A stretch of DNA of 64,000 bases from the NCBI GenBank assembly GCA_020055645.1, contig CM034548.1, positions 930,001 to 994,000 of the forward strand, written 5' to 3'. Each line of letters starts with the position of its first letter. Position 1 is the first letter of the stretch. This DNA is from Tomocerus qinae. Its lineage: Eukaryota > Arthropoda > Collembola > Entomobryomorpha > Tomoceridae. Made by a program: the position numbers and the translations under genes. Under the pieces are notes generated by a model. That model saw only the letters and a program-made list of their open reading frames with translations. It was not told the origin of the DNA and did no database searches. Shown here piece after piece: positions 17,369-61,335 of this stretch.

Positions 17369-17960
17369 AATTGAGTGTGAAATGTAATATGGAGTGAGTG
17401 CCGAGTACAACATGGAATGAGTGTGGAGTACTATATGGAGTGAGAGTGGAGTACTATATGGAGTGAGTGTGGAGTACGATATGGAGTGAGTGCGGAGTAC
17501 AACATGGAGTGAATGTGGAGTACGACATGGAGTGAGTGTGGAGTACGACATGGAGTGAGTGTGGAGTACGACGTACGATTTGGTGTGAGTGTGGAATACA
17601 ATATGGAGTGAGTGTGGAATACAATATGGAGTGAGTGTGGAGTACATTATGGAGTAAAAAATGTAATGCGATACGGAGAGATAATAGAGTACAGTATGGA
17701 GTAAAAATGGAATGGAATATGAAGAGATAATAGAGAATAATATAAAGTGAGAATGGAGTACAATATGAAGTGAAAATGAAGAGCAATATGGATTGAAAAT
17801 GGAGTACAATGTGGAGTGAATGTGGAGTAAAATATGGAGTAATTGTTTAGTATAATATGCGGTTAGTGTTACTAACAATATGTGATTAGCGTGGAGTACC
17901 ACTGTTTGATTTACAATACGCTAAGAGTGTGAGGTATAATATGGAGATAGTGTGGACATT
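17369..17960. repeat. minisatellite, 23-bp GTGGAGTACAATATGGAGTG type
   Basis: About 25 imperfect units of GTGGAGTACRAYATGGAGTG plus AGT, with some variation in length. It lies between the Helitron helicase stop and the 3' terminal hairpin. Open frames of up to 186 codons on the minus strand (LHTHSMSYSTLTP repeats) are a by-product of the repeat, not genes. Confidence 0.85.
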
Positions 17961-21050: not shown

Positions 21051-21109
21051 TATTAAAACTGGGAGTTAGTATTTTGCTTCATCTCTTCATTTGAGATTTC
21101 ATATATACG

Positions 21110-43500: not shown

Positions 43501-46500
43501 TACCCTGTCATTTTAAACAGGCGTCATTTTAACAGACGTTATTTTAAATAATTTCGTCGTACTAAATAACTTCGTCGCTTCAAATCACCCCGTCATTTTG
43601 AATAACCCAGCCATTTTAAATTGAAATAACCTCTATATTTTAAACATTCCTGTCATTTTAAATAACCTCATTATTTTAATTCACCTCATTATTTTAATCT
43701 TCCCGGTTTACAATCCATCGCTTTGTTTCAATTAAGCCCACATTTATTTTAATCATTTATTTTAGTCCAACTTACTATTTTATTTAGCCCTGTCGTTTTA
43801 ATTAACTCCACTATTTAATCGTCCTCGTTATTTAGTATTAGTTAACCCGTTACTTTAATTAACCGTGTTATATTACCCCTTATACCTATGTTATTTGACT
43901 CAGATTAACTGATTTGACATAAATTCAAAGATGAAAGCTGCTGCATAGTACCAAAGAAATCTATTTCTGTTTCACTTTATGTTTATTGAAACCAGTGCTG
44001 TTCATTTCTCACAACCCCAACAGAGCACTACAGTCTGCGCTACCATGTGAGTAATGCGGCATTCTGTATGCAGGCTCCTTATACATGTAAAAGTTGCAAA
44101 TAATTTTATAAATTTTTGAAAACAAAAAATTAAAAAACTAAGCTCTAGAGCCTCTTATTTTGGGTCATTAGCAGCTCCTCAAAAAGTTTCATAATGATTT
44201 ATTTATTTATTAGCACAAATATCACCCTCAATAGAGGTCAATATAATGATCAGTGGAAAACTGTAGGAGATTTTTGAGTTTTTCCATATCCTTTCCTTGT
44301 TAAAGTCTGACTTTCAAAAATTCATAAAACGATTTCTATGAAACCGAGCGTTATGAAAACGCTCATTTGAGTTTCTGACTATGAGAAGTACATACAGTAA
44401 AAATTTCAAACAATTCTAACGGTAATTAGATGTACTTGTGCAGCTAATATTATAGTGATTACAATCCTATTCAATAAGATTAATGTAAAGTGTGTGTGTG
44501 TGTGTTTCCGTTATCATTTCAAAGTCTGAATTTGGCTCAGTGGCGTTGAAATGTTACAAATAAATCCAGGCTCTCAACACACAAAACAAAATAAATAATA
44601 TTATATTCTCGGCTTGACTCTTGCAACTAAAATTCACTAATGGTGTAGCATAAGTGGGAGACATCCAAATCATATTCCTAAATTGTGTAGCATGGGTTGG
44701 AGACTTCCAACTCATATTCCTAAATTGTGTAGCATGGGTGGCAGACTTCCAACTCATATTCCTAAATTGTGTAGCATGGGTGGGAGACTTCCAACTCATA
44801 TTTCTAAATTGTGTAGCATGGGTGGGAGACTTCCAACTCATATTCCTAACTGGTGTAGCATAAGTGGAAGACTTCAAACTCATATTCCTAAAAGGTGTAG
44901 CATAAGTGGAAGACTTCAAACTCATATTCCTAAAAGGTGTAGCATAAGTGGGAGATTTCCAACTCATATTCCTAAAAGGTGTAGCATAAGTGGGAGATTT
45001 CCAACTCATATTCTTAAATTGTTTAGCATGGGTGGGAGACTTCAATCCAAATATCTAAACTTAGTAAACGCACAGGAAATTTAAAACACTTTTGTAAATA
45101 ATAAATTTTTTAAGTTTGTTTTAAATTAGTTTTCAAATTTAAAAAAATTCTTTTCATTTTTTTGAAATTTCAAGCACCCTGTTATTAACTCCGTCCGTAG
45201 GACGGGTAACCGTACTCGTGTGTTTAATAAAAATACATTTTGAAATTTTTGGCCAGCAGCAGGTTGAAACTCAGACGTCATACGTATATATTTCGCATGC
45301 AATAATTTTCACATCTAATGTTTTACATCCTGGGGTAGTGAAGTTTTACACCTGTGATACACAGTGTTACAATTTCATGGATCGGCGGTAATTAGTTAAA
45401 ACTGTGCTTTAATTTCTTAAAAACTGTCTTTCTTATTCTTGTAAAACCTGTTTACTTATATTATGAGAATAATAATTTTAACATTTTTCAAAAACTACCG
45501 ATAAGCCGTTGTATAAGCTCGCCTTAGTAATGTAAATTTTTGACTAGCTTTTCCCGATAAATTGGAGGAGAAATCCATAGCATCCGCCACTGGTGTATAA
45601 GCAGTTTCTAACCGGCTTGTTTAAAACCCGACCATGTATTAGAGAGGCATCGGCGTCCCGTAAAGACTGTGCGGTTCTATAAGCTTGCTTTTTGGAGCCA
45701 CCTATATCTTTCAAAGTAGCAACTAGTAGCAGCTGCAATTTTTTTCAAAAATTTCTACATAAAAATAGATAATTTTTGAAACCAGATTGAAAGGTGAGAA
45801 GTGGTGAGAACAAAAGTTATGTAACATTTTGTATGCGAGAGAATAGGAATCGCGCAGTGAAATAATGTCATATCTTCCGTTGTACATACCACAAAAAATC
45901 TTTAGAGGATATTGTAATTATTCGTATTCAGTACATTATCATGTGAAGTGAAGAAACTTTGTTAGATTAATTAGACTCAATAATCTGTAAGTATAAATAC
46001 GGATTCAAAATGGGGCATTATGCTGAGTGCTGCTTATACAGAAGTCATTAGCAGTAAGTCATTCTCATGCATTTTCTTTACTGCAGGCACGGATAGCGGA
46101 CAGAAACAGAAATCGTAACCCATTGACTACAAATCCACTATCGTCCTACATGATAGTTAATTAAAGTGAGTGTAGGTAGAAAGGACATTTTTATGCGTGG
46201 AGGGGTTTAGTGAGATAAAGTGGATTAGAAAGAGCTGACAAAACTATACGAACAAAAATTAAACATTCTTGTATTGTAAATAGAATTCCCAGAATAGAAG
46301 TAGAGGTGGTTAAGCATATTTCCCTGCCTTTTGGTCTCATTTTAATCCATCTCCATATATTTCATATAAAAAGCCATTTCATGCAAGCGCTATATCTATA
46401 GGCACAAGCCCACCTGGCCTACCCTTCCCCACTACCCATAGTAGAGGGGTACATCAGGTTCCTGGGCTTAAATCTCCTCTTTTCACCCATTTTTATAAGG

Positions 46501-49500
46501 GGCGGCAAGCCACATATCATATCGCCCAGCAAAGCATATAGCTCCCCTGACACATGTCAATCCCTCCCAAACCTGTTAGCCCCTCCCCACCCATAATTTT
46601 TTACCCCTTACCTAAAAAAATTTAAATGTTTTGAAAATTTTTTATCCCCCAAAAAAAATTAGGCCCCCAAACTTAACACAGGACGGCGGGGACTGAGATG
46701 CTTCTACTTGAAAACCTGATGGCCGACTGAGCTGTCCCGCCTTACTACACTGGAGTAATAGACGGTCGGAACATGTGGCTGCCATGCATTCCCAATGGCA
46801 GCCGTTCCGTGCTGCGTTAATTTACCACGACTTTTCAAATCTCGGCACAATTTACTACTCCTTTCACTCAAGTGTACGTACCCTTCCCTTGTAAGGATTT
46901 TCTGTCTACCCAATAAGTATATCCACCCTATTCCCCATTCATTATATTTCTCTATATAGCATCTCTAAAATTAAATTTCACTACGAACTATCCATATCAT
47001 TATATTTCACTATATAGCATCTTTATATCAGCCATAGTAAACTATGGGACAAGTTAAATAATATAGGAGTGAGTACAAATATAATACAAATCCTATCAGA
47101 ACTGTATGGTAAAGCTTTCAAAAGGATAAGATTAGAGGAGGGACACTCAGGGAAGATTGAATTAGCACAGGGCCTGTTACAGGGGGACTCACTCATCCCC
47201 CTATTATTTAATCTATACATTAGTGATATAATAGAGTGGTTAGAGACAGTAGGAGCAGAGGGTATACAAATTGGTAAGAAATTGTTACATGCACTACTTT
47301 ATGCGGACTATACAGTAATCTTAACTTTATCAGCAAAAGGACTGCAGATGAAAATAAAAGCGTTAGAAAGATATTTTAACTCGCTGGGATTGTTAGTCAA
47401 CAAGAATAAAACAAAGGTCGTAATTTTCAGGAGGAAGGGGAAGATCAGGGAAGGAACAAAGTTTGAGTTGGATGGAGAGAGGCTGGAAATTGTAAATGAG
47501 TACAGATATCTAGGGGTGGTTCTTTCATCCAGCATATTATTCAGAAAAGCAGCAGGAAATAGAAGAATAAAAGCTATGGGGGCGATAGGAAAAATTGTAA
47601 ACATACTCGCAAAGGGAAGGACAGATACGTTCGAGTCAATAAATAAACTGTACGAGTCAATAGCCAGAGCCTCATTATTATATGGATGCGAAATATGGGG
47701 ATTGAGATACGTGGATATAATAGAAAGAGCACAAGCTTATTTCTATAAGAGAGTGCTAGGTCAAGGCAGAACCAAGGCAGGATATTTGATCAGGCTCGAG
47801 TGTGGCAGAGTACACACTAAATGGGCAAATCTGGTATCAGGCTCCTGACACAAAAAATAGAGACAGGGGAAGAAGAACACGCAGAAATTGTCAGCATAAA
47901 CTCTGTAAACAAACCTAGAGCAAACCGTAAAAAATAAGACCAGACAAGGTCAAGTATAAGAGCAACATAGAGTGTATTATTGATATAGATATAATTATAG
48001 ATTAGATATATATAAGGTATATATAAGATTTATAAGCTATGTATAATCTGTACTATGTTTAAAGATATGGTTTAATGTATGTAACTGGGGTCCATGGGCG
48101 AGAGCTCACAGGGACCGTCAAAAATAAAAATAAAAATATAGCATCTTTATAATTATATTGCACCACGTGGCATCTACGTATTATTGTAATATCTATATCC
48201 AATATAAGATACACATAATAATTTTAGAATATATAACACAAGAAAATTATGTACCTCAATAGCTTCTATTTCCATCTCTAAACGCTTTCTCGATCCCCCT
48301 CCAACGTTTATACCAGATGTTATATCACACCATGTGAGCCAGATACAAGTAAAAACTCTCCTAATAAACAAACAAAAATACTCCTGCTCCAACAAAAATA
48401 CTCCTGCTTCTAACAAAAATACGCCTGCCCCTAACAAAAATACTCCTGCTCTTCTTCCCAACTTACTTGCTCTTCCTACGAAATCACTTACTCCCCTCCA
48501 AACTATACTTGCTCCTGTCTAAAAAATTACTCCTCTCCCGAAACTACTTGCTGCTCTCCTGAAGCTACTTCCTCCTCTCACGAAAACACTTATTCTTCTT
48601 CTAAACTTTTCACTCTTTTCACGAAAATACTTGCTCTTCTACTCATTTTGCATGCTCATTTTCTTCACTAAGTTAAAATGAACACGATAAACACGATGTA
48701 CGTGGACTTAAAAAACTTTTTGTTACTAAGCAAATGTTGCTGCTGTTCCTACTCATTCCTCGATGAACACGACCAACACAATGAACAGAACAACACTTTT
48801 TTATGCTGAAACTCTATAGCTTAAATGTTTTGTACATTCTTGTCCCCCTTTTATATTCCAATGTTTTTTTCTTTTTAGGTAATCTAAACGAATTCCGTCT
48901 CGAATATTCTTGCCTCTTTCGAGAGTATAAGTATTGTATTGCACCTCATTAAGCTCATTCATGTTCTGATCTCTGAAAAGTACATTCGCTCTTATTTGTT
49001 CTCAAAATGGAGTGCACATTCTGTGGAAAGTCGTTTGACAGAAAATATAATCTTAAAAGACGCAATGAAAATGTCCACCTAACTCCAAATCCATCAAACC
49101 ATATTACATCACAAAAACGGGGACGAGAGGAATTTTCTGAAGAAGATTCTAATCAAAGTTCTTCCAAGCATGCACCAAGGGTCGCCTCCTCTGAAGGAAG
49201 TGACGATATAACATCTTTGCCCAAAAGGAATAAAGATGTTTCAGCGCGGAATTCGGCTTCATTAAGGTGCGTCGTACACAGGTGCTTTTGTATGTGTTTT
49301 CCCACTCTCTTTCAGTCTGAATAACTCGACTAATATTGGGTCAATCTGGACGTATGATGCCTTAAAATAAAGATAAATTATCCTGCTCGGACCTAAGTTC
49401 GAGAAAACTTTACAATTTTGACCTCTAAAGGTCACCCGACTAGGTTAAAATAAAAAAATGTAATATATTTCGGCGGCAAATGTTTATAAATGAATAACAT

Positions 49501-52500
49501 AGCAAATAATAGAAATGTTAGAAAAGTGAGCGTCATAGGTCCGAGATAAATATGAAACAAACTTATGTTCAAAATGTGAAAATTTTCAGTTGACCCGTTT
49601 TTGAATTATACGAACTGAAACACAAACGAAAAATTTGAATTTCAAGTATAATACTCTACACGGAAGAACGACAGAGCGGAAAAGTCATGTGCCCCTTGCA
49701 GCCATAACAATACTATTGCTATTCATTCTACATTCATTCAATGCATACATTCAATGCAAAATTGTGTACAGAAACCGAACATCTGGCTCTTTACTTGTAA
49801 ATTGACATTACTAATTGTGCTATGCTATTGATTGCAATTGACGGATTGACACCAATATTTCTTTTCATTTGATAAATCGGTGTAAGGTCGGTGTTTGTAA
49901 ATACCAGGAATATCTACAAAAGCAAAAATATTATTTGGTAAACATTAAAGAACTTGGGTATTCAACATTTAATTTACTGAGTCAGCTGTGTGATATTCGT
50001 GAGCCTTGAAAAACAATATGTGTACTTTATTAAAAATGGGCAAGTATGTTCAGAAATTACAATTGTTCAAAAATCGAGTGGAGTAGTCAGTAAAATACAT
50101 CCGAGTGATTTTCGCACTAACTCCCAAAAGGTATTATATAACTGAATATTTTAAATCAAACATTAAAAAAATATTATTGAATAGACGAATTGATTCTTCT
50201 TAACCAGCTCTGTAATCATTCCAATTAATACGTATATTGCATTTGTTTTAGTTATCCAACAAGAGACCAATGCAGTACAACATTTAGTTTGAAAAATCGA
50301 GAGGAGTAAAACGTAAAATACATCCGAGTGATTTTAGTTGTCACGAATTAAAGAAAGGTATTATTAACAGTTTTACAGCTATTAATTACATCTACTATAA
50401 ATCCATATATATTATAGTTTCCCGGTAAGGTCTTGCATTACAATAATTTTATGTTTGTATTTTAGAATGCCAAAATACAGAGGCATCCATAGCGGTAAAA
50501 GAAAGAATCCCCATAAACTACTGCAGAGAACAAAAAATCAAAATGGTACAGAAAAACAATCCACCCCAGTTGACATTCCACAACAGCAAACAAATCCACC
50601 CATTACAACACCAGAACCAATAGATGTACGAATGAAGGGGAGACGGTTAATGTCAATTACATTGCTGGAATACTGTATGCAATTAGCAATGAACCATGGC
50701 AAAGTCTGTCCAAAAGGAGTGGGATATATTGCTGATGAAAAACTTTTGGGAATGCGTTCCATTTTCACCATTCAATGTGAATATTGTCGCTGGAAAGAAG
50801 AAGTTGACACCGATTTAAATTGTAATCTGACTGTTAACGAAGCCCTATCATGGGGAACCCTCGCCGGAGCATCAAGTTATGAAGGTAGTAAAAATTTGTT
50901 TCACGTTCTCGAGTGTCATTTCCCTAGTCATAGGACATATCAAAACTATAAAGCTGTAACAACGGAGAAATGGAGTCAAGCGTTAAAAGAAGAGATAGCC
51001 GAAAATGGGAGGTTGGAACAGAAATTAGCAAGAGAAAAAGGGCAATTTGTTGTCGTAAATGGAGTTCTATATCCATACACAATGGAAAAAAATGTACACT
51101 AAATTTTTAAAGTTTTATGAAGAAGATGTAGCTCCAGAGATAATTAACTCGCGTTCTAATCGCAATATGCCAATCAGACAGCCACAGTATCGCAAAGATG
51201 CAATTAATAAAAAACTTTCAAAGCGGAACAAAGAAAACATTCCTCCTCGAAAAGTTTTAAAAAAGCAATGCACATCTTTGGATGGGCTGTCGAATATATA
51301 ATGCTTTATACTATCATGCTTTGTACTCACCCATTACCAATATTTTGGTTTGCCTTTTCTACTTTATTAAAATCCATCCCAGTGATTCAATTTTTAAATG
51401 AATGATAAGTAACAGTTTTACGTAGTTATTATTTTTCTTGAACCATTTTAATTTTATTATTTCAAAATTTAACTTACATTTGTCCTTAATTAAATGTTAA
51501 AGAAGTTGTAAAAATATTAAAGACGATAGAACAAACCGTAACGGGTAACTGACAGCTTGGTTAATTTTATTATTAGCTAATTAAAAAATAAATGTAATAG
51601 ATTATCAAAAATCTAAGAATTGTTAAGTTCACATTATTCCCAATTATCATCGTCATCATCAATTTCACCAGAAAACGTACCTCCAAACTCAAAGTTGTCA
51701 AAATTGATTTTTTTGAATCCTCCCAGCATATTTCGGCATAGCTTTTGTTTTTTCTTACCACTGGCAAATGTTTCTTTCAATGCACAACCTTTAGAACACC
51801 CTTCCCACTTTATGGTTTTAGGATTAACTTTTCTAGATGGCTTTATGTCGCGGTGTTTGTCTAAATCATCGCATTCGAAGCGAGCCTTGTTTGGATACTT
51901 GGTTAAAAAACTTCGCTTTTTTTGTGACATAAAGCTGCTAATCTTGCATCTCTGATGCAGCAATGATGAGGAAGTCCGGCGGGGTTTTCTTGAATATTTT
52001 TCCCTAGAAAATGTACACCTAAGTCTTCTGCAGATATTGCAGTATTTTTCTTGTCCCGAAAAAGTCTTGAAGATCCTCGGTTTTTTGATGAGCAATTTTC
52101 AAAGTTTTTAAATCATTGGAAATGGCAAATCCTATAACTAATTTTCCTTCAATACAGGTTTGTAGCATTTGTCGTACCTGTAATAAAGATTGAAATTTAA
52201 CTCTACTTTTAATTATTACAACGCTGTAAAATAAAGTGAGGATTCCATGTAAAATTCTTAAATTTTGACTAGCCATAATTCGCAATAATCAATAAATAAC
52301 TTACTATATCATAACTTATTCCAGACCCCAGTTTTTCTTTGTCAATTCCAGTCAATGCAGTGTTGTACCGACAAATATTACCGTGTTTGACTATTGCCCA
52401 GAAAATTAATCGTCCGTGTTTGTCGACGACGGCAACTGACGCTGGCAGAGAATTGTGGGTGTTAGCTTCTGTCACATTTTCAATATCTAAGTACATGTTC

Positions 52501-55500
52501 TCACCAGATACGATTAAGTCCCCACGATAAATAAAATTTGTCTATAAATAAACGCAATTATTGAAATTTATGAAATTATGATATTTTATGATTAAATATA
52601 TGAATTTTATAAAAAGCTTAAAAATTACCGAAGAAAATGCCGGAGACGGTTTTAAAGAAGTGAGGTTTGGGGCACTCGAAAATACTGTACATGGTACTTC
52701 ACTCACCCCAACACCCACAGTGGACGACTTTAACTTTTCGTCTGCTTTTTTCTTTCTCTTCAAAGTATTCTGAGCATGATTTTTCACTTTTAGCAGCTGG
52801 TCGTCATCGAAAGGGCTTTTATTAATTAGTTCCATTACAAGATTTAAGTAATCAGTAGAGTTCAGAGAGCTAGCTGCCTTGACCACCGACATCTGAAATC
52901 GACAAACATGATGTATTTAATTTATTATTGATCATTGAACTAATATAATACAATCTAAATAATGCATGATTTATAATATTATCATGTAAGAATGTATTAA
53001 AATACTGCTACCGTTGCAACCGACAAAGACGGGGTTTCTGGGTTTTTTCGGGTTCCATGTGGATTGCAAATTTCTTTTTCCATTGCTAATCGTACGCAAA
53101 GATAACTGTAGTTGAAAGCGTAAGAAAACTCGAAAACTGTCAGTTGTATGAGAATGGAATTGGTTCATCTGTTTGAATATGCCGGTGAAGCAAGTCAGAC
53201 ATTTCTACTCAATCTCTAGTTTCGTTCTAACTCCTGTACATTTTTACTACTTCAAACGAATTCCGCTAGTTGCTTAGTGGTAGCGTACGACAAGCCTTAA
53301 GCTGACGAAAACTATACTCAGGCAACGTCTTAACAACACAATAACCGAAGAGGATATTTGCCAGCAGGAGGAGGATGAAAGTTCATCCTCTAGTGACTGG
53401 GAATGACAGTAACGAAGCTGATGATGAGTCTTCAGAAAGTCTTCTTCTTCCGATTCTGACACTAGTGAACATGAATCTTTAGCCAGTAAAACTGAAAGCA
53501 ATTCAGGAAGTGAAACTGAGACAGAAAGCGAATCCGGGAATAATAGTAACGAATCCGATGATGAATCGTCAGAATGCGAAGATTCTTATAATGAGATAAC
53601 TGCTACAGACTGGACATCCTAAAGGCGTGTTATCCTAAAGGCGGTTGAAAGAATCGAATTCTGCCATTTTCATAATATAGTTTTAAAGATCATATATTGC
53701 AAAACGTACTTCCAGGCATAGTATAGTTTTAGGGATTGTATTTTAATTTAAAAGGATTTCATGAAATTAATATATAAATTACACTACATAGTAATAGAGT
53801 TGCATAATTTAGTAATAAGAATTGCATGATAGGAAAAAGTTTCATCTAGAACTGTCGTGATTGTCGTGTTTGTCGTGTTCATAGAGAAAGAAATAGGAGT
53901 AGGAGCAGGAGTAAAAGTGACATTGGTTATTAACTAAAAGTTTTCAAAGCGCATCGTACGTGTTTATTTTTATTTATTGAACGAAAAAAGCAAATCAGCT
54001 CATGAAATGAGCAAATGAGCAGGTGAAATGAGTAGAAAAGCAAGTATTTTCGTTAAAGTAAGTTTAGAAGAAGAGTAAGTAGTTCAATAGAGAAGTAAGT
54101 TGTTTTAAGAGAGGAGTAAGTAGTTTTGGGATAGGAGTAAGTAGTTTTGGGATAGGAGTAAGTAGTTTTGGGATAGGAGTAAGTAGTTTGGGAAGAGGAG
54201 TAAGTAAGTTGGGAAGGAGAGCAGGAGTATTTTTGCTAGGAGGGGAGTTTTTGCTTGATAACGTAAGCATCTGGCAAGGGAGGGGAGATATAAAATCAGG
54301 TATGAACGTTGGAGGGTATCGAGAAAACGTTAGTGAGTTAGAAATATAAACCATTGAGCTACATAATTTTCTTTTGTTAAAGCTTGAGTTTATGGAGATT
54401 TAAGCCCAGGAACCTGATATACCCCCGTACTATAGGCGGGGGGAGGGTAGGCCTTACGGGGCTTGTGCTTATAGATATAGCGGTTGCATGAAATGGCTTT
54501 TTATATGAAATATATGGGGATGGATTAAAATGAGACCAAAAGGCTTAAACATGCTTAACCACCACTACTAATAGAGATGGCTTAAGCCCATAAAACAGTT
54601 TACATCACATTGTAACGGTAGCATAGGGATTTCTAACCGGCAACATATTACCTTCCCTTGCCCTGTGCCTATATGGTATGGCGATGCATATCTATGTATC
54701 ATATCTGATTGGTTGATATTTTTGAAATCCAGCCATTTTATTGGCTATTTCTATGTCGAAAGTTCTATAGATTACCCAATTGGGAACAGCAAATTTTGGA
54801 ATTTTTACAAGCTGCAATGAAGTCACGTCTAGGTGTTTTAATTACTTAGAAAACCAACCACCGCTTGAATGCCATTAAGAAGTTTGCCAAATCTAAAAAG
54901 AAATTTGTCTATTAAAGGCCACCGTCGTCTGGATAATACTGACAGACCAGGATAGGCAGAAATAGTTTGATGTTTAGAAGTACATCTCTATATTATAATC
55001 GCAGAGTCGAAAAAATTTACGTGTCTATATTTCTATCTATGTATGTACGGTTGGTAGGGTGTTCCGAAAAGCAAAATGCGCATGCTAACTTTCTCTAAAC
55101 CACCGAACAATGCATAGGGGCATGTAAATTTGAATATTGTATCTATCTAATGAAAACTTGCATGTTAAAGTAATGAAAGTTTGCATTTGGGTAATGTCCC
55201 TAAAATGAGCAATGCGCAAGTCCGTATGCAATGCTTTTCTAACATCAGATATCAAAATGCAACATCTGGTGTGTGATTATTTCAAAACTAACAAAACCTT
55301 TGATTTTGATGTGCTTTGTGTTTGTAGTAGATATGGATGTTTTTTATTGCTTTTCGGGTATTGATTGTAGGTAAGTATCTTTCTAACTTAAAACCTACAG
55401 CAAGCCGTAACAGAAGCTCGCCTGAGTAAAGTTTACCGTGTACACATTTTGGTAGCGAAAAGTTACACAAAACCGAGCGTACGGATTTTGATCAAACTTT

Positions 55501-57951
55501 CAGAATTGAGTCTTTATATATGTATCTACGACATATTAAAAATTCAGACATTGATATTATAAGGAAACGAAGCTATATCATTTCAAATATCAACATAAAA
55601 TCAAAATTGATGATTGTTGACCACGAAAATCAATCGAAAATCAAAATTGATTAATGTTGATAATCAAAATCAACCGAAAATAAAAATTGATTAATGTTAA
55701 CAATCAAAATCAACCAAAAATCAAAGTACATTAATGTTGACTATAAAATCAACATAAAATCAAAGTACATTAATGTTGACTATAAAATTCAACAGAAAAT
55801 CAAAGTACAATAATGTTGACTATGAAAATCATCAGATATTCAACTTTGATTGATTATGAGTATTAAAATAAACAGAAATTTAAATTCGGTTAATAATGAC
55901 TATTAAAATTAAAAAGAAATCGCAAAATGGATATTTGACTATCAATTTGAATATAAATGCGAAATTGATTTATTTTCGTCCTATGATGTTTATTTTGCAG
56001 TTTTATTTACGTTATTATAAAATTTTAAATATGGTCGAAGCAGAGTTAAATATTTTATACTATCCCGCTAACAATTAATAGGAAACACAATTGAAATTTT
56101 TATGGCCCATTTTCTGCTTTGACTATCAAATAAAGACAAAGTGAGCGCGCGGTATCTCAGCAACTTATGGACCGATTTGAACCAAAATCAATAGGGTTCG
56201 TCAGCAGTCCATAGGCATAGTTTATGCCAAGTTTGGTCAATATCCATCATTGCTTTCGAAAGTTATCGTGGGTACGGACGGACGGACGGACGGACGGACG
56301 TACGGACAGACTGTGCGGTTCTATAAGCTGCCTTATTCAGGCGAGCTAAAAAATTGTCGACCTGGATTGTTTTGCGAAACTTGTGAAACTGAAAAATTGT
56401 GAAATTAAATTTAAGTAACAGGACTAATGCTGATCAGAAGCAGTTTTTCTTGAAAATGTGTACAAAAAAAATGACTTTAATATTAAATATCTCAGAAAGT
56501 AATGGGACTTTTAAAATAAAACTTGGCAAGTATATTTTAGTAAATATAGGGGACCTTTACTTTCAATACGGACGGGGGTTACGGGCTCCCAAAACATTTG
56601 ACTGACTCAAAATGGTTTGAAATAACATTTTTACACACCCTTCGACAGAATCAATGGATTTCAGCATTTTGAAAATCTGTAGCGCTATTTTAAAATTCAG
56701 AACAGTGTGTTATGCCATAACCATAGTAGGCAACTAAGGCAAATAGCAATGATTTTTTTGGGATTGTTTTTATTACTGGGATGGGTTGCCTATTGAATTT
56801 CTCTTGAGTGCTAGGTTCGTCCCTTTGATGGGTTCACTAGTTTATCTATATTCAGATATCTGTCTGAATATATGTCTGATATCTATACCACAGCTACAGG
56901 GCAAAAAAGGGTAATGTAGTGCCTGACGGCAACAGTACCGTACAACTTTGGTGTTTTCTAAACCTTTCATACATGTCATGCATTGCAATTGGTATTGGTA
57001 ATTTTATTCGAACATTTCAGTTTCATAGTTCGAACATCACAATACAGTAAATCTATAACCCAGAGAACAGCAAGCTAAGAATGAGAATAGACGGACGCTT
57101 ACGTGATAAACGTGAACTCATGTGAATGTCGGATTTGAATACTTACTTATAGTGCAGAGCAGAAAACGGTATTGGAAATTTTCATTTCTAACGTTTTACA
57201 TCTCTGGGTAGTTAAATTATACAACCAAGAAGTGAAGTTATACAATCGAGAACTTGTGAAATTGCAGTACCTGGTTGTAAAACTTCAGTAGTAAGCTCTT
57301 AAGCAGTACATGGATGTACAGATTAAGAGGTTATAATTCCTGGATCCGCACAAAACAAACTTTATTTTTGGGTGTCTGAGGTGTCCAAATATCAGTTTCT
57401 GGGTCTCCCCCGTGGCCTTAATATGGGTTTATTGAGCTCCTTTGGGGCCCAAATTACTGTCATTAAGACACCCAGGGCATTTAGCGACCGACGCGGAGGA
57501 CCTCCGCTACTGTGCGAAGAATAAACAGCCCGACCATTAGTAGTCACCCTCAAAATCTAAGAAAAGAAAGAAATTCAATAGTATGAATTCGCACTTATAA
57601 TTTGCCCTCTCCCTAGTCTATAATTACCTCATTACATGTGAGTAAATCAAGCATTACATTTCTCTCAATATTGATATAGGATTTCCCGCTTTACCGCAGT
57701 CGTTCTGGAGAAATTCTTACTTCGAAGATGGGAATAAAGAAAAACGGAAGGATTCAAATGAAGATTCAGGTGTTGAGTCGCCTTCTCGAAATTGCCACGG
57801 ATCTGCAGCCAATATGTTTGGTTGGCCAGAACCGGATTACCGAATGATGATGTGCGCAGAAGTTAATGATGAAGATTTTATCACCATTCATCACGAACTG
57901 GGGCACATTATGTACTTCATGGCTTACAGGCACCAGCCCACTATCTTTCAG
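25336..57951 (+). CDS. ACE: angiotensin-converting enzyme-like M2 metallopeptidase (partial gene)
   Basis: A zinc dipeptidyl carboxypeptidase family, secreted or membrane-bound, that trims peptide hormones; insect members act in reproduction and moulting. Five plus-strand exons are found: 25336 to about 25540, 36131-36360, 36639-36824, 42622-42783 and 57680-57951. The last four join without a frame break (A-G-LEDMG, ILG-NMWAQ, SMG-FPALPQSFW). An exon for about 60 residues between the first two was not found in the 10.6 kb between them, and the exons after the HELGH site (third zinc ligand Glu, chloride and C-terminal parts) are not in the window either. The introns of 6-15 kb are made largely of satellites and transposons, and carry the 8.3-kb element at 46.3-54.6 kb. 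Confidence 0.9.
25978..27400. repeat. satellite array, ~30-bp GGATCCGTTATTAAAAGCCA type
   Basis: About 45 imperfect units of GTGGATYCRTTATTAAWAGCC plus ATAAAAAT. There are sub-blocks: GGATCCGTTATTAAAGACC early, GGATTCATTATTAATAGCC in the middle (26760-27115), and GTGTGGATAATTTATTAATA late. A ~290-bp higher-order repeat is visible (26165-26340 recurs at about 26410-26640). In an ACE intron; not coding. Confidence 0.88.
27605..28705. repeat. minisatellite, ~20-23-bp TTTTAATTTGAACCCACC type
   Basis: About 50 units. It begins as TTTTAATCTTAACTCCC (20-bp period), changes to TTTTAATTTGAACCCACCCT plus TAACAA (23 bp), with ACCATTAAGAATT variants in the middle and near-identical units at 28240-28540. 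It lies about 100 bp inside the Helitron 3' hairpin at 27487-27503. Confidence 0.88.
28735..29160. other. Helitron interior, no gene seen
   Basis: Unassigned sequence between the minisatellite and the 5' block. Short runs such as AACTTTTTTAATTTTAACCC near 28950 are stray repeat units. No frame with a recognisable domain. Confidence 0.3.
29270..29890. other. unassigned ACE intron sequence
   Basis: Open frames on the minus strand (29308-29694) are lysine/serine/phenylalanine-rich and recall insect chemoreceptor-like composition, but no motif supports that. Nothing else seen. Confidence 0.25.
29892..30060. mobile_element. fold-back element, ~75-bp arms
   Basis: GGTTGAGTTTCTTATTATAA at the left end matches the reverse complement of the right end, and the pairing continues through GTCTTGGTGGACT, GGCGACCTCACTAAG and GGGAGAATCATCGTTAC, leaving a ~35-bp loop. 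The left arm has a small internal duplication (CACTAAGTCACTAAG). No frame; a typical hairpin MITE. Confidence 0.75.
30185..30640. repeat. tandem duplication, ~225-bp unit
   Basis: Two direct copies (about 30185-30350 and 30410-30600) and a third start at 30605. Shared words are GAGCGGCTAAGGAGC, GGTTAAGGGGCG, GCTATTAG and CAACTATTTAACGAAA-type. The second copy contains CGGGCTATTAGCGGG. Function unknown; no frame. Confidence 0.6.
30650..32215. other. unassigned ACE intron sequence
   Basis: 30880-30930 and 35690-35720 share an ATATATCATGCATG-type motif in opposite orientation. 31470-31560 and 31800-31990 are slightly GC-richer, with open stretches on both strands but no domain. No ACE exon recognised here. 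Confidence 0.25.
32416..33198 (-). pseudogene. LINE ORF2 C-terminal region
   Basis: 260 open codons after the RT stop. It covers RT thumb and downstream helices (NTFKYLGVDLDEKLNFSNHV, then DKFGILTVNEQIIYSI) and the usual end, ALVWDKLPISVKREKSFALF. In an active element it would be continuous with 33217-33933. Confidence 0.75.
33217..33933 (-). pseudogene. LINE reverse transcriptase domain
   Basis: 238 open codons with RT blocks 0-5: GKTFEKLILSSL, QYGFQRFLSTQHALLDL, SFYDIKKAFPSLNYL (catalytic D), GLPEESTLGPMLYCFYISDI and VLFADDVAKS (catalytic DD). It ends at a stop just after the FADD block, about 60 residues before a normal RT domain would end. Confidence 0.82.
34470..36100. other. unassigned ACE intron sequence
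   Basis: No gene recognised. 35840-35985 ends with CGACGGACAGACGAACAGAC, the tail of a common dispersed animal repeat whose usual form is TTATCGTGCTGACGGACGG; a similar tail is at 56250-56302. Confidence 0.3.
36131..36360 (+). CDS. ACE: ACE exon, helical lid region
   Basis: Acceptor CAACGTCAG, donor AAGCAG|GTAAAA. It reads ILSTMQSLYNDQVS, then DGKFYRMEPDLNRFMETTRE, LKTAWIAWHSKIGVAVKPLY and VNFIHMLNQGARQAG. The AnCE counterpart has LDTLSAMESNFAKVKVC, LDPEIEEVISKSRDHEELAY, YWREFYDKAGTAVRSQFERY and VELNTKAAKLN. The cysteine pair of the AnCE loop (CDYKDSTKC) is absent here. Confidence 0.85.
36639..36824 (+). CDS. ACE: ACE exon, substrate-cleft helices
   Basis: Acceptor ATCATTGTAG, donor TTTTAG|GTAACA. 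It reads LEDMGQCWRQESD, then LYADVKHLFSLLHSYVRFKL and RSIPAHILG. It matches AnCE LEDIFADIRPLYQQIHGYVRFRL and PIPMHLLGNMWAQ. The codon GGA of the conserved LGN is split between this exon and the next. Confidence 0.88.
36840..37405. other. ACE intron, no gene seen
   Basis: AT-rich. 37085-37125 contains GCTCACGCTCGCCTCGGCTC and CCGAGG, a small GC-rich hairpin. Related TATCTATGCCATGG words occur at about 6560 and 37005. Confidence 0.25.
37411..37543. repeat. 31-bp tandem repeat, four units
   Basis: Units of GAATTATACTTATATTACGT plus GAGAGTAATAT, with one to three differences. It runs without a gap into the 25-bp array that follows; both share the joint word ATGAAT. Confidence 0.85.
37544..38056. 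repeat. 25-bp perfect tandem array, about 20 units
   Basis: The unit is GCGAAAACGACATTTTCGTA plus TGAAT, repeated with no visible difference to 38056. Inside each unit CGAAAA and TTTTCG can pair around CGACA, so the array is a row of hairpins. Because 25 is not a multiple of three and no unit contains a stop on the minus strand, all three minus frames are open; these are not genes. The lack of divergence implies very recent expansion or ongoing homogenisation. Confidence 0.95.
38060..38630. other. ACE intron, no gene seen
   Basis: AT-rich with a local palindrome around ACCCCAATTTGGGGT at 38474-38490. No frame of note. Confidence 0.3.
38640..39190. repeat. 39-bp tandem array
   Basis: Six near-identical central units (38699-38940) of CAATGGCATCAATGAAACTT plus GAAATTTTAATTTTCGGAC, with decayed units on both sides (GTGTGCACCATG variants to 39180). 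39 is 13 codons, so a 13-residue repeat is open on the plus strand (MASMKLEILIFGP) and on the minus strand (PLVRKLKFQVSLM). No start context, domain or splice signals; treated as satellite. Confidence 0.92.
39190..39400. other. short repeats with GCCGGC words
   Basis: Contains CCAGCCGGCTAAATTGGC and CAGCCGGCCGGCCATTTTTG, two related stretches separated by about 130 bp. No gene. Confidence 0.3.
39405..39950 (+). mobile_element. LINE reverse transcriptase fragment (R1-like)
   Basis: Frame 39289-39522 has ALGIFLNIEGAFSHATFETM (block A of R1/Jockey-type LINEs, usually DIEGAF) and IREGI. In another frame come VKRGCLQGGVLSRLLW (39577-39625) and then, at 39624-39938, AYADDLGLLQVG (catalytic YADD) and LSINPDKIEIIIF. 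One or two frame changes and truncation at both ends. A different clade from the 32-34 kb LINE. Confidence 0.8.
40553..40802. mobile_element. GC-ended repeat family, copy 4 (reverse)
   Basis: GGCTGTATTGAGGGGGTGGG at the left end and TTTCTAAATACAGTACTG at the right. It has a run of 10 C, CAAAATACCAAAAAATTT and two GCGCTTCGCGCGATT palindromes (40651 and 40724). Matches copies 2 and 3 in reverse orientation. Confidence 0.55.
40850..41470. repeat. minisatellite with CCATCCCATC words
   Basis: Degenerate units CATCACCAACATCCAAAAACC at the left, three good 36-bp units (CCATCACCATGCAGCATCCA plus AATAAAGTAAACCATC) at 41105-41222, then loose units to 41440. The last ~45 bp are on the opposite strand (GGATGGTGGATGGGATAGGG), giving a terminal inversion. 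Not coding. Confidence 0.75.
41590..41710. mobile_element. GC-ended repeat family, fragment
   Basis: GGGCGCTGCGCTCCCCCTAA, then ATCTGAGGAAAATAGAAG, then TTTTTGGTTGTGCCCCCTGG. It matches copy 1 (15541-15715) closely in its first 60 bases. No frame. Confidence 0.5.
41711..42090. other. ACE intron, no gene seen
   Basis: AT-rich, no recognised repeat. The minus-strand open frame at 41830-42084 has no domain. Confidence 0.25.
42091..42247. mobile_element. hAT-type MITE
   Basis: 157 bp with ends CAGTGGCGGGGCTAG / CTAGTCCCGCCACTG (one mismatch) and inner inverted words CGTGGGCAC/GTGCCCA. The flanks are AATCACAC and AATCAAAC, an 8-bp target duplication with one change. CAGTGGCG...CGCCACTG ends are common among animal hAT MITEs. 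Confidence 0.8.
42622..42783 (+). CDS. ACE: ACE exon with NMWAQ motif
   Basis: Acceptor TTTTAATCCAG, donor TCTATGG|GTGAGG. It reads NMWAQKWDSLIDIVWPENGE, then KNPLVKSLLLPNSSVLNM and VEEAESFFMSMG, the counterpart of AnCE NMWAQQWSEIADIVSPFPEK and FQMGDDFFTSMNL. It leaves one base for the next exon, which begins 15 kb downstream. Confidence 0.9.
42970..43900 (-). mobile_element. Helitron 3' end with degenerate minisatellite
   Basis: On the minus strand the hairpin CCCGTCCGTAGGACGGG (42981-42997) is followed by CTTATTT and CTAG, then T. About 450 bp inside, 43440-43870 is an old array with words such as ACATTTTAAATAACCCCGTC and ATTTTAATTAACC. The 5' end is unclear, so the left limit is firm and the right limit is a guess. 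Confidence 0.65.
43191..43250. repeat. 60-bp palindrome
   Basis: CATAATTTAGTCATT pairs with AATGATTAAATTATG, and ATTGGCT with AGCCAAT, around a GTCAACT loop. It lies inside the Helitron-like block and may be a separate tiny fold-back insertion. Confidence 0.6.
43905..44475. other. ACE intron, no gene seen
   Basis: AT-rich, no frame or repeat recognised. The next block begins with a (GT)n run at 44489-44506. Confidence 0.25.
44480..45218 (+). mobile_element. non-autonomous Helitron with 42-bp minisatellite core
   Basis: The 5' block (44480-44585: GGCTCAGTGGCGTTGAAATG, CCAGGCTCTCAACACAC) and the 3' block (TTTCAAGCACCCTGTTATTA, hairpin CCGTCCGTAGGACGG at 45191-45205, then TAACCGTA and CTCG before T) match those of the element at 27475-29265. 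The core is an unrelated array (44640-45055). Confidence 0.72.
44640..45055. repeat. 42-bp minisatellite, about ten units
   Basis: The unit contains TCCTAAATTGTGTAGCATGG and GTGGGAGACTTCCAACTCAT. Left units have AATTGTG, right units AAAGGTGTAGCATAAG. 42 is 14 codons, so frames stay open on both strands (up to 163 codons); these have no other sign of being genes. Confidence 0.9.
45220..46298. other. ACE intron, no gene seen
   Basis: 45600-45720 shares AGACTGTGCGGTTCTATAAG with 56307-56330, a dispersed repeat. No frame or domain recognised up to the terminal repeat at 46299. Confidence 0.3.
46299..48830 (+). repeat. left terminal inverted repeat (interrupted)
   Basis: Matches the right arm over 46299-46480 and again over 48225-48830. 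The 46490-47011 part has no counterpart on the right, so it is either extra sequence here or deleted there. 48360-48600 is a subterminal array of AACAAAAATACTCCTGCTCC-type units running into TACTTGCTCTTC units. Confidence 0.75.
47028..48135 (+). mobile_element. 5'-truncated LINE with 16-bp target duplication
   Basis: Flanked by ATATAGCATCTTTATA at 47012-47027 and 48136-48151. The frame at 47069-47848 covers RT from block 4: ELAQGLLQGDSLIPLLFNLY, LLYADYTVILT (YADD changed to YADY), then LLVNKNKTKVVIF, YRYLGVVLSSS and FYKRVLGQGRTKAGYLIRLE. It ends in AAAATAAAAATAAAAAT. The loss of the second catalytic Asp makes it inactive. It inserted into the left terminal repeat of the 8.3-kb element, so it is younger than that element. 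Confidence 0.88.
49007..51301 (+). CDS. two-exon zinc-finger protein with Mutator-type transposase N-domain
   Basis: Exon 1 49007-49266 (donor TTAAG|GTGCGT), exon 2 from 50466 (acceptor TGTATTTTAG); the split codon joins in frame. Exon 1 starts MECTFCGKSFDRKYNLKRRN, a C2H2 finger whose first His is Arg, then an acidic/Ser-rich linker. Exon 2 has KGRRLMSITLLEYC, SIFTIQCEYCRWKEEVDTDL, LTVNEALSWGTLAGASSYEG and TYQNYKAVTTEKWSQALKEE, the pattern that precedes the DDE core in a widespread arthropod/cnidarian Mutator-like family. The core (DGxWxKRSY etc.) is absent. A 7-A run at 51086-51092 shifts the frame: reading on in the other frame gives MYTKFLKFYEEDVAPEIINS and a stop at 51301. A DNA-binding role at the terminal repeats is likely but inferred. 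Confidence 0.6.
49267..49984 (+). other. intron of the transposon gene, no further gene seen
   Basis: Begins with GTGCGTCG. AT-rich, with no recognised frame or repeat before the exon-like segment at 49985. Confidence 0.4.
49985..50130 (+). CDS. possible alternative exon inside the transposon gene intron
   Basis: After TACTGAGTCAG the frame is open: CVIFVSLEKQYVYFIKNGQV, then IVQKSSGVVSKIHPSDFRTN and SQK before AAAAG|GTATTA. The final part is repeated at 50288-50357, which argues for a coding constraint. It does not fit the phase of the 50466 exon directly. Function unknown. Confidence 0.35.
50288..50357 (+). CDS. possible alternative exon, paralogue of 49985-50130
   Basis: Acceptor CAACATTTAG and donor GAAAG|GTATTA enclose FEKSRGVKRKIHPSDFSCHE and LKK. 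IHPSDF and the residues before it are shared with the upstream candidate exon, and both are followed by GGTATTAT. Probably an old exon duplication in this element. Confidence 0.35.
51302..51902. other. convergent 3' region between the two transposon genes
   Basis: The plus-strand zinc-finger gene stops at 51301 and the minus-strand exonuclease gene at 51903, so the two converge here. On the minus strand 51634-51902 is open in a frame overlapping the end of the exonuclease (CKGCALKETFASGKKKQKLC, then FEFGGTFSGEIDDDDDNWE). It could be a C-terminal extension used by other splicing, but it is not in phase with the exonuclease frame. Confidence 0.35.
51903..53083 (-). CDS. DEDDh 3'-5' exonuclease encoded in the TIR element
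   Basis: Four exons, all introns in phase 0: 53012-53083, 52629-52892, 52305-52541, 51903-52177, giving about 280 residues. Exo I: NMYLDIENV (D and E ligands), then SVAVVDKHGRLIFWAIVKHG and LTGIDKEKL. Exo II: GKLVIGFAISNDLKTLKI (D). Exo III: SAEDLGVHFLGKN and HHCCIRDARLAALCHKK (H and D). This is the REXO/ISG20-type pattern, with all five metal and catalytic residues present. Such enzymes remove nucleotides from RNA or DNA 3' ends with two metal ions. The N-terminal ~110 residues are polar with a KRKKKADEK patch. A 6-T run (52081-52086, plus strand) puts exon 4 out of frame by one base between Exo II and III. Confidence 0.72.
53084..53259. promoter_or_regulatory. 5' flank of the exonuclease gene
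   Basis: The region between the exonuclease ATG (53083, minus) and the acidic stretch must hold the exonuclease promoter, possibly shared with a plus-strand transcript. No TATA box or other recognisable element stands out, so this is positional inference. Confidence 0.25.
53260..53622 (+). pseudogene. acidic Ser/Glu-rich coding remnant
   Basis: Reads TITEEDICQQEEDESSSSSD-like (frame 1, ending DWE), then NEADDESSES, then SSSSDSDTSEHESLASKTES and NSGSETETESES...ECEDSYNEITATDWTS and a stop at 53622, in three successive frames. The two halves look like duplicated versions of one acidic tail (DESSSSSDWE versus EITATDWTS). It lies between the exonuclease gene and the right terminal repeat; an upstream partner exon is not recognised. 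Confidence 0.4.
53800..54569 (-). repeat. right terminal inverted repeat
   Basis: Reverse complement of the left arm. 54060-54240 is its array, GGGATAGGAGTAAGTAGTTT units repeated three to five times. The outer ~200 bp are about 85 percent alike between arms by eye, the array part less so. Confidence 0.75.
54570..55585. other. ACE intron, no gene seen
   Basis: AT-rich. TGTCTATATTTCTATCTATG near 55025 resembles words at 17170 and 37010. No frame with a domain. Confidence 0.25.
55586..55885. repeat. minisatellite, ~36-40-bp ATCAAAATTGATTAATGTTG type
   Basis: About seven units of AATCAACATAAAATCAAAGT plus ACATTAATGTTGACTAT, with variations. Low GC; no coding. Confidence 0.8.
55886..56160. other. 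AT-rich ACE intron, no gene seen
   Basis: A short plus-strand open frame (55896-56078) consists mainly of I, K, N and Y and reflects base composition. Nothing else. Confidence 0.3.
56160..56340. repeat. dispersed repeat tail with (ACGG)n
   Basis: GGACCGATTTGAACCAAAAT, GTTATCGTGGGTACGG and then GACGGACGGACGGACGG (56276-56302), a form common at the ends of dispersed repeats in many invertebrates. It continues with AGACTGTGCGGTTCTATAAG, also at 45666-45685. Confidence 0.6.
56733..56840 (+). mobile_element. 3' end of a Helitron-like element, second terminus type
   Basis: Matches 12827-12933 over its whole length, ending GGGTTCACTAG before T. The body upstream is not recognised. Confidence 0.5.
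56841..57679. other. ACE intron, no gene seen
   Basis: 57350-57540 is GC-richer (GGGTCTCCCCCGTGGCCTTA, GACGCGGAGGACCTCCGC) and has small inverted repeats, but no frame with a domain. The ACE zinc-site exon follows at 57680. Confidence 0.25.
57680..57951 (+). CDS. ACE: ACE exon with the HELGH zinc site
   Basis: Acceptor ATTGATATAG, donor TTTCAG|GTAAAA. It completes SMG-FPALPQSFW, then has a hydrophilic insert with KEKRKDSNEDSGVESPSRNC and then HGSAANMFGWPEPDYRMMMC, DEDFITIHHELGHIMYF and YRHQPTIFQ. HELGH supplies two zinc ligands and the catalytic Glu. The family stretch HASAWDF is changed to HGSAANMFGW, so the substrate-backbone strand is atypical. Confidence 0.92.
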
Positions 57952-59085
57952 GTAAAATTTTACAATATAGAACCTAGCACCGAGTTCCATCAATTACAAA
58001 GCCTTAAAAATGGTGTAAGTACCTGAGCAGCACAAAAAGTAACTTAGAAGTAAGCCACCTGCGCGTAAGTATCTGCAGATTAGATCGCAATCGCCTTTGT
58101 TTATCCTCCGGGAGGCTACCTGATTATCCCTATGTCCAAGCTGGCGACTTACTGCGCAATCTGCTTAGTAGCTAATCCGCAACCTACTATTTCGCTACTG
58201 GGTCGATTCATAAAAATAGGATTAGTTAGTTAGGATTTTTACCAATGATTTCAAAACAAAGGAGACTTTATGGTGAACACAGCCCGTGCTTGGTCAACGG
58301 CGGCGGTGGCTGTAGCTTTATGTTTTGCGAATATAATCCTTGACCAAATAAATTACCAGCGGCGCCCAAATAAAAAGGGGATTATTATTATCTTCCTCAT
58401 GAGCCAACTGTATGACCACATACAACTGTAAATTCAGAATAAGAGAAAATAATAATAATTTACAACAATAATCTTTACAACGTATGATAAGACTTATGAC
58501 TTTCTCTTTATAACTTATAACCTAACCTAACACTATATTTAAAAAGGTCATCCTAGTCAGAAGAAAAATTAAAAACACATGTCGATGCAAGAGAGATTAC
58601 AAATATTTGAATGTTTAGGTAATTCTGTTTCTAATAGCTGTTCAGGCAATAAATAACTATTTAAATATACCAATACATAATTCTGGACATCATTTGGAGT
58701 AGGGAACCAATATGAAAGATGAACTTGGCGTGTCGCGCGAACGGGCTAACTTTTCAAACTACGTAACTTTTATAATTAAACCTAAAATGTTATTTTTTCC
58801 GAAATTATGTTTATCATGCACTATTGACACATTCGGTACTAAACCCAAGTATTTTTATGGCAATATAAGTTTAACCAAATAAGTGCATTAATACCCGATC
58901 CGACCAAACATTTTGTACCGCTTTAAGCCATAACCAAACACTGCTTGGCCGGGCTGGCCAAAAAATAAGTAAAAATCTTAATTCTCCATTTAATCAAAAC
59001 CTACTCCCGGGGCCACACGGTGTAATCGCGTATAAACCAACGACAAGTAGTAACAGAAATTGCAATGTGGAAGTAAAGCAATGCT
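57952..59085. other. ACE intron downstream of the zinc-site exon, no gene seen
   Basis: The next ACE exon should encode the third zinc ligand Glu in a GANPGFHEAVGD-like stretch; I do not see it here or later in the window. 58050-58200 is GC-richer with no frame. Confidence 0.35.
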
Positions 59086-60110: not shown

Positions 60111-60379
60111 CATTTTAGTTATTTAAGAAAACTGGACATGCATGAAACTCGTTTATCTAAAATAGCTTATCCAGTTAAATGCGAAGGACGACAGTCTTAA
60201 CTGTGTACCGCAATTCAAAGCACTGCTTAAAAATTGTATATCAGTTGGCACAAGCAGGACGGTAAACAGATAACAGCAGTTTTATATTCCATAGTTCGCG
60301 TAAGCACCTTATACAAAAGGGCATAAATAGAGCAAACAATTCAATTTTTAACCCATTGTACAAAACGTATGTGCTGAAT

Positions 60380-60850
60380 CAAAACTAAAGGCAGCGAAAA
60401 TCAGACGCTGAATCAAAACGAAAGGTATCGAAAATCAGACGCTATATCAAAACGAAAGGTATCTAAAATCAAACGCTGTATCAACACGAAAGGCATCGAA
60501 AATCACACGCTGAATCATAACGAAAGGCTTTGAAAATCACAAGCTGAATCATACTAAAAGGTATCGAAAATCAGACGCTAAATCAAAACGAAAGGAATCA
60601 AAAATCAGACGCTACATCAAAACGAAAGGTATCGAAAATCAAACGCTATATCAACACAAAAGGCATCAACAACCAGACGCTAAATCAAAACCAAAGGCAT
60701 CCAAAACCAGACGGTGAATCAAAACGAAAGGCTTCGAAAACCAGACGCTGAATCAAAACCTAAGGCATCGAAAACCAGACGCTGAATAAAAACGAAAGGC
60801 AATTGAGGATGTTTATCGCCGCGCAAACCCATCGAAAATCAGACGCAGAA
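60380..60850. repeat. 34-bp tandem array
   Basis: About 13 units of GCTGAATCAAAACGAAAGGC plus ATCGAAAATCAGAC, with 10-20 percent divergence. One frame of each unit reads DAESKRKASKIR, like the basic repeats in some transposon-encoded proteins, but a 34-bp period cannot keep one frame, so today it is non-coding. Confidence 0.85.
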
Positions 60851-61335
60851 TTGAAACGAAAAGTAATGCAGGATACTGATCGCTTTGTAGCACAGCACAA
60901 AAATCTGATAAAAGCCAATGGCGATTAAAGACGATCGTCGCGATTTTCATCGAACTGTTATCTCTGAATGTATAAGAAATTAGTAAGGATACGGTAATGT
61001 GTATACCAGAAAAGTAAAAGATGTAATTGCTCACCGAAAAGCGAAACTGGATCCAGCATTACGTACTCTGGAAAAGCCAAAGGATGCAATTGCCCATCAA
61101 AAGGAGAGACTTAAACTAGCAGTACGCACTCCGAAAAGAGAAAGTGCCCAATTGCCCAACAAAAAGCAAGAATGAATCCCGAAATACGGACTACTGAGAA
61201 GCAGATAGACGCTGAACCAAAACGGGAAATGCGAAAAATTCCACGTCGTCGCTTAGAAATACAAGGAGCTGAGAGTGAACACAAACGAAAAAGAAACAAA
61301 ACAAATGGATGTAATTATGAATTTACAATCTACTA
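60850..61335 (+). pseudogene. relic of a Lys/Arg-rich repetitive protein
   Basis: Plus-strand stretches read VKDVIAHRKAKLDPALRTLE, KPKDAIAHQKERLKLAVRTP and MNPEIRTTEKQIDAEPKREM, then RKIPRRRLEIQGAESEHKRK. The shape N/D-P-E-x-R...DAExKR recalls basic repeat tracts in Helitron- or other transposon-encoded proteins. Frame breaks occur between the units. The 34-bp array just upstream may derive from the same tract. Confidence 0.35.

Follow-up and report, generated by a model that had tools for sequence, protein, structure and literature searches.

Structure of the Locus

The window analysed here is a 64,000-base stretch (35% G+C) of contig CM034548.1 of the springtail Tomocerus qinae, and all positions below are counted from its first base. 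At 46299-54569 it holds an element delimited by long inverted arms, between which two genes with predicted introns converge: a transposase-type gene on the forward strand and, on the reverse strand, a gene for a predicted DEDDh exonuclease of the REXO/ISG20 type. The latter lies wholly within the arms, which are bounded by an exact repeat of 6 base pairs (bp). The features are listed below with coordinates, strand, and the evidence for each; E denotes the expect value, and LINE stands for long interspersed nuclear element.

46293-46298, no strand: left 6-bp target site duplication AATAGA, exact match to 54570-54575
46299-46477, + strand: left arm, outer part, beginning 5'-AGTAGAGGTGGTTAAGCAT (arm alignment, 15/174 mismatches against the right arm)
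46480-48230, no strand: left-arm stretch with no right-arm partner, limits approximate (arm alignment)
47028-48136, + strand: LINE fragment (Pfam RVT_1, E 6.7e-14), enclosed by two 15-bp copies of TATAGCATCTTTATA in direct orientation (47013-47027 and 48137-48151)
48234-48800, + strand: left arm, inner part, whose inward limit is approximate; holds tandem repeats of 21 bp (arm alignment)
49007-49266, + strand: predicted exon 1 of the transposase-type gene, with a degenerate C2H2 finger (C-C-R-H), a charged tail and the donor GTGCGT (Pfam zf-C2H2, E 0.0026, under its cut-off)
50466-51300, + strand: predicted exon 2 of the transposase-type gene, with the N-terminal part of PF20700 'Mutator' (E 4.2e-13), then a frame change and a basic C-terminal tail
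51634-52177, - strand: exonuclease exon 4, with Exo II at 52132-52097, Exo III at 51965-51945, a charged C-terminal tail and the stop (motifs)
52305-52541, - strand: exonuclease exon 3, with Exo I, YLDIENV, at 52493-52473 (splice and frame reading, motif)
52629-52892, - strand: exonuclease exon 2 (splice and frame reading)
53012-53083, - strand: exonuclease exon 1, with the proposed start codon (splice and frame reading)
53800-54569, - strand: right arm, whose outer end reads 5'-AGTAGTGGTGGTTAAGCAT on this strand and whose inward limit is approximate; holds tandem repeats of 21 bp (arm alignment)
54570-54575, no strand: right 6-bp target site duplication AATAGA, exact match to 46293-46298

Inverted Arms and Flanking Repeat

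The pairing of the arms, followed through gaps, extends out to exactly the bases 46299 and 54569. The outermost ungapped pair (46326-46411 with 54459-54544) covers 86 nt with 97% complementarity, and the mismatches over ungapped columns amount to 15/174, 12/88 and 31/204 in the outer, middle and inner of three aligned stretches. The 21-base tandem repeats are present in both arms. Ungapped and gapped pairing alike bear out the inverted arms at 46.3-48.8 and 53.8-54.6 kb that a preliminary description of this DNA had reported. About 1.75 kb of the left arm, however, lack a partner in the right arm, and a LINE fragment of about 1.1 kb, apparently 5'-truncated, which that description overlooked, lies inside the unpaired stretch. 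Either this stretch was inserted into the left arm as a nested element, or the right arm has lost its counterpart. The element ends with AGTAGA on the left and with AGTAGT on the right, the latter being read on the opposite strand. The sequence GGTGGTTAAGC occurs in the window at the two element ends only, and no further copy of the element of at least 60 bases was found within the window.

Target duplications were searched for with offsets of 12 bases either way, a skew of up to 2, and lengths of 4-12. The exact repeat AATAGA lies immediately outside both ends (46293-46298 and 54570-54575); with the ends fixed, such a 6-bp match arises by chance at a rate of 0.0003, as determined by drawing 20,000 position pairs at random from the window. 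The same search revealed no flanking repeat of at least 8 bp with fewer than two mismatches at the element ends, and a duplication of the length canonical for Mutator-like elements (MULEs) was rejected on this ground. By chance, flanking repeats of 8-10 bp that carry no more than one mismatch arise at a rate of 0.066 (1,500 trials).

The Exonuclease Gene

The exonuclease gene is predicted to have four exons joined at canonical GT/AG junctions, of which exons 1-3 (72, 264 and 237 bases) are each a multiple of three, and the prediction is complete from start to stop. The motif set of REXO/ISG20-type DEDDh enzymes is found in full: D-x-E in Exo I, D in Exo II, and H-x4-D in Exo III, the last located after the first of two frame changes. 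Both changes fall within exon 4; the homopolymer runs at which they occur lie inside 52055-52066 and 51914-51926. Such sites fit a mutation or an assembly error better than a programmed frameshift. The four-exon REXO/ISG20-like exonuclease with complete Exo I-III motifs announced in the preliminary description stands as far as exons and motifs are concerned. The gene is not intact, however, the two frame changes having been overlooked there, and its open pieces add up to 369 codons instead of the 280 residues given.

For comparison with the PDB (E up to 10), the pieces were joined with an X placed at both frame changes. The joined query matched SDN1 (1.4e-7), ISG20L2 (2.9e-6) and ISG20 (1.1e-4), and the remaining two matches were to non-nucleases, eL24 (0.38) and PSF1 (1.6). 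The part upstream of the first frame change alone matched ISG20L2 (1.5e-6), ISG20 (1.3e-4) and SDN1 (1.8e-4). The Exo III piece alone had no exonuclease among its four weak matches, so the assignment of Exo III relies on the joined alignment and on the H-x4-D spacing. The catalytic set aligns with that of SDN1, ISG20L2 and ISG20, including across the exon 3/4 junction. REXO, SDN and ISG20 enzymes act mostly on RNA.

Identities were taken, for each pair, from the first block of the printed alignment: 30/97 to plant SDN1, 26/87 to human ISG20L2 and 22/93 to ISG20, against 44/86 between human ISG20 and ISG20L2 in the same register. The product resembles these chains (PDB 5z9x, 7yw5, 1wlj) in its DEDDh motifs and in the spacing around Exo I-III, and differs from them in its low identity (24-31% in the first blocks), in N- and C-terminal tails of its own, in its location in a transposon, and in the two frame breaks. 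Judged by these alignments, the domain is a distant, predicted DEDDh exonuclease of the REXO/ISG20 family. It does not clearly look like a vertebrate-like gene copied recently, the comparison being with PDB chains that include no arthropod REXO. The predicted exonuclease is about equally far from ISG20L2 and SDN1, while the two human proteins are closer to each other, and this is a mild argument against its having been copied from a conserved host gene in recent times.

Between the start of the exonuclease gene and the right arm, an acidic, serine-rich open stretch is found on the + strand (53300-53622), with a 39-nt direct repeat (85%). Pfam gave no match for 53428-53622, and the stretch may represent another exon of the element, now decayed.

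The Transposase-Type Gene

The two predicted exons of the transposase-type gene join in frame at GT..AG junctions. In the zinc finger, as read from the sequence, R stands in place of the first H. The PF20700 match is limited to profile positions 2-142 of 357, and the frame of exon 2 changes at an A-run within 51084-51099. A six-frame Pfam scan of 48700-53640 (E up to 1) yielded nothing beyond PF20700 and the weak C2H2 finger; this gene, convergent with the exonuclease gene, is the only one of its type found inside the element. The zinc-finger/Mutator-N gene described earlier opposite the exonuclease is present, with a degenerate finger, a PF20700 match confined to the N-terminal part, and the DDE core missing, the last point having gone unnoticed in that description. 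PF20700 has a CCHC finger pattern that we take to resemble that of Kolobok, and the Pfam name 'Mutator' may mislead for that reason.

Related direct repeats with 78% identity over 81 columns (50066-50142 and 50289-50368) were observed upstream of the exon that encodes the PF20700 part; past the end of this exon, at about 51366-51440, a stretch resembling them is seen by eye. The repeats possibly derive from a nested insertion or from the duplication of regulatory sequence.

Comparison with Known Transposons

The closest published group is KolobokD, DNA transposons described by Kojima and Bao (2022) from molluscs, arthropods and cnidarians; the available account reports that they encode a DEDDh exonuclease, with a proposed role in the 3'-end degradation of DNA intermediates (PMC9587614). 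The resemblance is without a full match. As in KolobokD, a DEDDh exonuclease lies beside a transposase-type gene, a likeness that concerns gene descent and not present function, and the AG..CT ends fit the 5'-RR..YY-3' termini reported for Kolobok. The Kolobok target duplication is given as TTAA, against the 6-bp AATAGA here, although duplications vary and are 3-5 bp in KolobokP (PMC9587614). The KolobokD exonucleases are described as similar to exuperantia, TREX and ERI1, on evidence that also included HHpred (PMC9587614), whereas the only exonuclease matches here, obtained by sequence comparison only against the PDB at E up to 10, are SDN1, ISG20L2 and ISG20. The PDB presumably includes TREX, ERI1 and exuperantia chains. 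Kolobok transposases are reported to have a DDD/E core with C/DxxH together with a CCHC finger; the DDE core that would place the element is lost from this copy. Because neither the TTAA duplication nor the reported exonuclease relatives were found, the element is not assigned to KolobokD.

A TTAA duplication was considered in its own right and rejected. TTAA does occur 11 bases inside each end, but this is due to the symmetry of the arms. A duplication of this kind would need a pre-existing 26-base near-palindrome with 6-bp repeats on either side, which is less simple.

Some Dada elements carry a DEDDy exonuclease inside the transposase; in the account consulted, Dada makes 6-7 bp duplications, is without terminal inverted repeats, and targets small RNA genes (PMC3706591). 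The 6-bp duplication observed here falls within that range, whereas a separate DEDDh gene and long arms set the element apart from Dada. These precedents mean that the preliminary description was only partly right in saying that such exonucleases are not a standard part of cut-and-paste elements. Its idea of a lineage in which an exonuclease helps to process intermediates has already been published for other families, KolobokD being the direct precedent and Dada a looser one.

The likeness to MULEs lies in the long inverted arms, each of which holds tandem repeats, in the Pfam name 'Mutator', and in the C2H2 finger, as in the arthropod Spectre, which has a C2H2 finger with its transposase (PMC6446971). 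MULE target duplications are given there as 8-11 bp, and the word 'exonuclease' is absent from the main text of that survey (PMC6446971). In Aedes, MULEs are reported to have duplications of 8-9 bp in all 14 families, and subterminal repeats with units of 9-15 bp occur in 10 of the 12 long-TIR (terminal inverted repeat) families (PMC5225508). The duplication here is 6 bp, the repeat unit is 21 bp, and the DDE core is missing. This mismatch in duplication length weighs less because two papers give wider ranges: 4-10 bp for hAT, Kolobok, P and MuDR (PMC3706591) and 4-10 bp again for groups including MuDR (PMC10045372), so that a MuDR relative with a 6-bp duplication is possible. On account of the duplication length the element is, more cautiously, not assigned to the MULEs either. 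The earlier label 'Mutator-like' is uncertain: the 6-bp duplication lies outside the 8-11 bp range, though within the wider one. The convergent layout of the two genes is also like that of mudrA and mudrB of maize, convergent genes which read inward from the two arms.

Relatives were sought in collections of viral contigs and prokaryotic genomes; animal genomes are not part of these collections, which are thus silent on copies in animals. The exonuclease gave no relative in either collection, and the PF20700 open reading frame none in the viral contigs, protein scans of this kind detecting close relatives only. The arm sequence likewise had no relative in the viral contigs. Stretches matching a core motif of PF20700 numbered 2 in the viral and 25 in the prokaryotic collection, and by eye not one of them appeared family-like. 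Among the matches listed in the open-licence full-text literature, there was no description of a REXO/ISG20-type exonuclease within a transposon, which may still be in print.

Age and Constraint

On the assumption that the element inserted with identical arms, the change since then amounts to roughly 4-8% per arm. This copy is a non-autonomous relic, old and inactive. No stop was found in the 369 open exonuclease codons. Neutral simulation of these codons with 5% change per site predicts 3.0 stops, with zero stops in 0.038 of 1,500 runs; with 7.5% change, 4.5 stops are expected and zero were obtained in 0.011 of runs. That no stop is seen may be a hint that the exonuclease was under constraint after insertion.

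Interpretation and Alternatives

We consider it about an even chance that the element is a dead copy of a two-gene DDE transposon from the hAT/P/MuDR/Kolobok/Dada assemblage, equipped with an accessory exonuclease of the REXO/ISG20 type. Each gene reads inward from one long inverted arm. One would have encoded a zinc-finger DDE transposase of the PF20700 type, whose catalytic core has since been lost from this copy, and the second an accessory DEDDh 3'-5' exonuclease. In an intact element, the transposase would bind the arms, excise the element, and insert it with a 6-bp staggered cut, while the exonuclease, as a regular part of the mobile family, would process or degrade the exposed 3' ends of DNA transposition intermediates. 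This reading is favoured by the position of the exonuclease gene inside repeat-bounded arms, by its complete predicted structure with canonical splice sites and an alignable catalytic set, by the convergent transposase-type gene, by the lack of stops, and by the 4-10 bp and 6-7 bp duplications given for members of the assemblage. A precedent for the accessory role is the DEDDh exonuclease of KolobokD, for which the same role is proposed.

Several points count against this interpretation. A single copy is known, and any family-wide pairing of exonuclease and transposon would depend on it. No recognisable catalytic region or DDE core was found in the basic tail or elsewhere in this copy, so it is unable to move itself now. 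The exonuclease frame is broken twice in exon 4; Pfam (E up to 10) returned no exonuclease family for it and two spurious matches, and NCBIfam only three weak, unrelated ones. An exact 6-bp match arises by chance anywhere in the whole offset search at a rate of 0.033 (1,500 trials). The duplication departs from the TTAA of Kolobok and from the 8-11 bp of MULEs. As to age, the arms of one element can differ from the start, those of Tm1 averaging 93% identity (PMC3169594). Finally, the stop-codon argument for constraint is weak because the frames were picked for openness and two frame changes exist.

The main rival explanation, which the preliminary description had also raised, is that a host REXO/ISG20-like gene was captured by one transposon copy, as Pack-MULE-like cargo, and is decaying together with the element with no role in transposition. 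Only one copy is in view, the predicted exon-intron structure is host-like, exon 4 has its two frame changes, and non-autonomous MULEs are reported often to hold host gene fragments (PMC5225508). The predicted gene here is, however, complete from start to stop and not a fragment, and it is placed convergent to the transposase-type gene. Its identity to the three PDB chains of the REXO family is low (22/93 to 30/97) next to that between the human pair (44/86), no host REXO being among the sequences compared. Capture of a host gene is possible, if on the whole unlikely.

The element could also be a non-autonomous derivative of a Maverick/Polinton, moved by a Maverick integrase, with the exonuclease and the PF20700 remnant as unrelated cargo. 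Vertebrate Mavericks are reported to have 6-bp duplications and, most commonly, 5'-(AGT)2//(ACT)2-3' ends, other motifs existing as well (PMC8097293), and the element shares with them a 6-bp repeat and inverted arms, here several hundred bases long, while its ends (AGTAGA/AGTAGT) resemble theirs. The right end is exact, whereas the left end deviates in its sixth base. Duplications of 6 bp are also reported for Dada and, with other ends, for IS3EU (PMC10045372, PMC3706591); the open reading frames of intact vertebrate Mavericks are described as intronless (PMC8097293), in contrast to both genes here. The six-frame Pfam scan of the interior described above detected no polymerase, integrase, ATPase, protease or capsid. 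The element is not assigned to Maverick because no Maverick gene was found, and a derivative of this kind seems quite unlikely.

Slightly less probable still is that the transposon-borne nuclease acts on RNA, such as small RNAs or transposon transcripts, and thereby counters silencing: SDN1 ('small RNA degrading nuclease 1') heads the database matches, followed by ISG20L2 and ISG20, and small interfering RNAs are reported to be associated with long MULE inverted repeats (PMC6446971), but the KolobokD proposal concerns DNA 3' ends (PMC9587614).

Surrounding Window

The content of the window is eukaryotic, with a Pds5 exon, a fragment of ACE (peptidase M2), Pif1 helicase pieces and several reverse transcriptase fragments; the first two point to an animal, and more narrowly to an arthropod. 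The ACE exon (57646-58023, + strand) encodes 93 residues over 78 profile positions, i.e., some 15 extra residues. The Pif1-type pieces (21056-22557, - strand; PF05970, PF21530) are of a kind that we take to be found in Helitrons, and are probably a Helitron remnant. Minisatellites with periods of about 23-42 bases are numerous (17296-17915, 27600-28800, 37417-38166, 38567-39190, 44536-45123, 60305-60882, and others), and one of them lies directly left of the element.

Significance

The pairing of an exonuclease with a transposase is already known from KolobokD and Dada; judged from sequence, the REXO/ISG20 type found here looks different. As far as the published accounts show, the exonuclease roles in KolobokD and Dada are proposed and not tested. 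It is rather doubtful, but conceivable, that the element belongs to a separate lineage of animal DDE transposons, distinct from KolobokD, which independently recruited a REXO/ISG20-type DEDDh exonuclease as a second gene and combines 6-bp duplications with Maverick-like AGT ends. If so, DDE transposons would have recruited 3'-5' exonucleases repeatedly, possibly for an RNA-directed role. Should the exonuclease fail to recur in other copies, the old element would simply hold a captured gene of the ordinary sort. Recurrence of this different exonuclease branch, on the other hand, would show convergent recruitment, and would make it testable whether transposons of this kind depend on the trimming of their 3' ends or turn the enzyme against RNA silencing.

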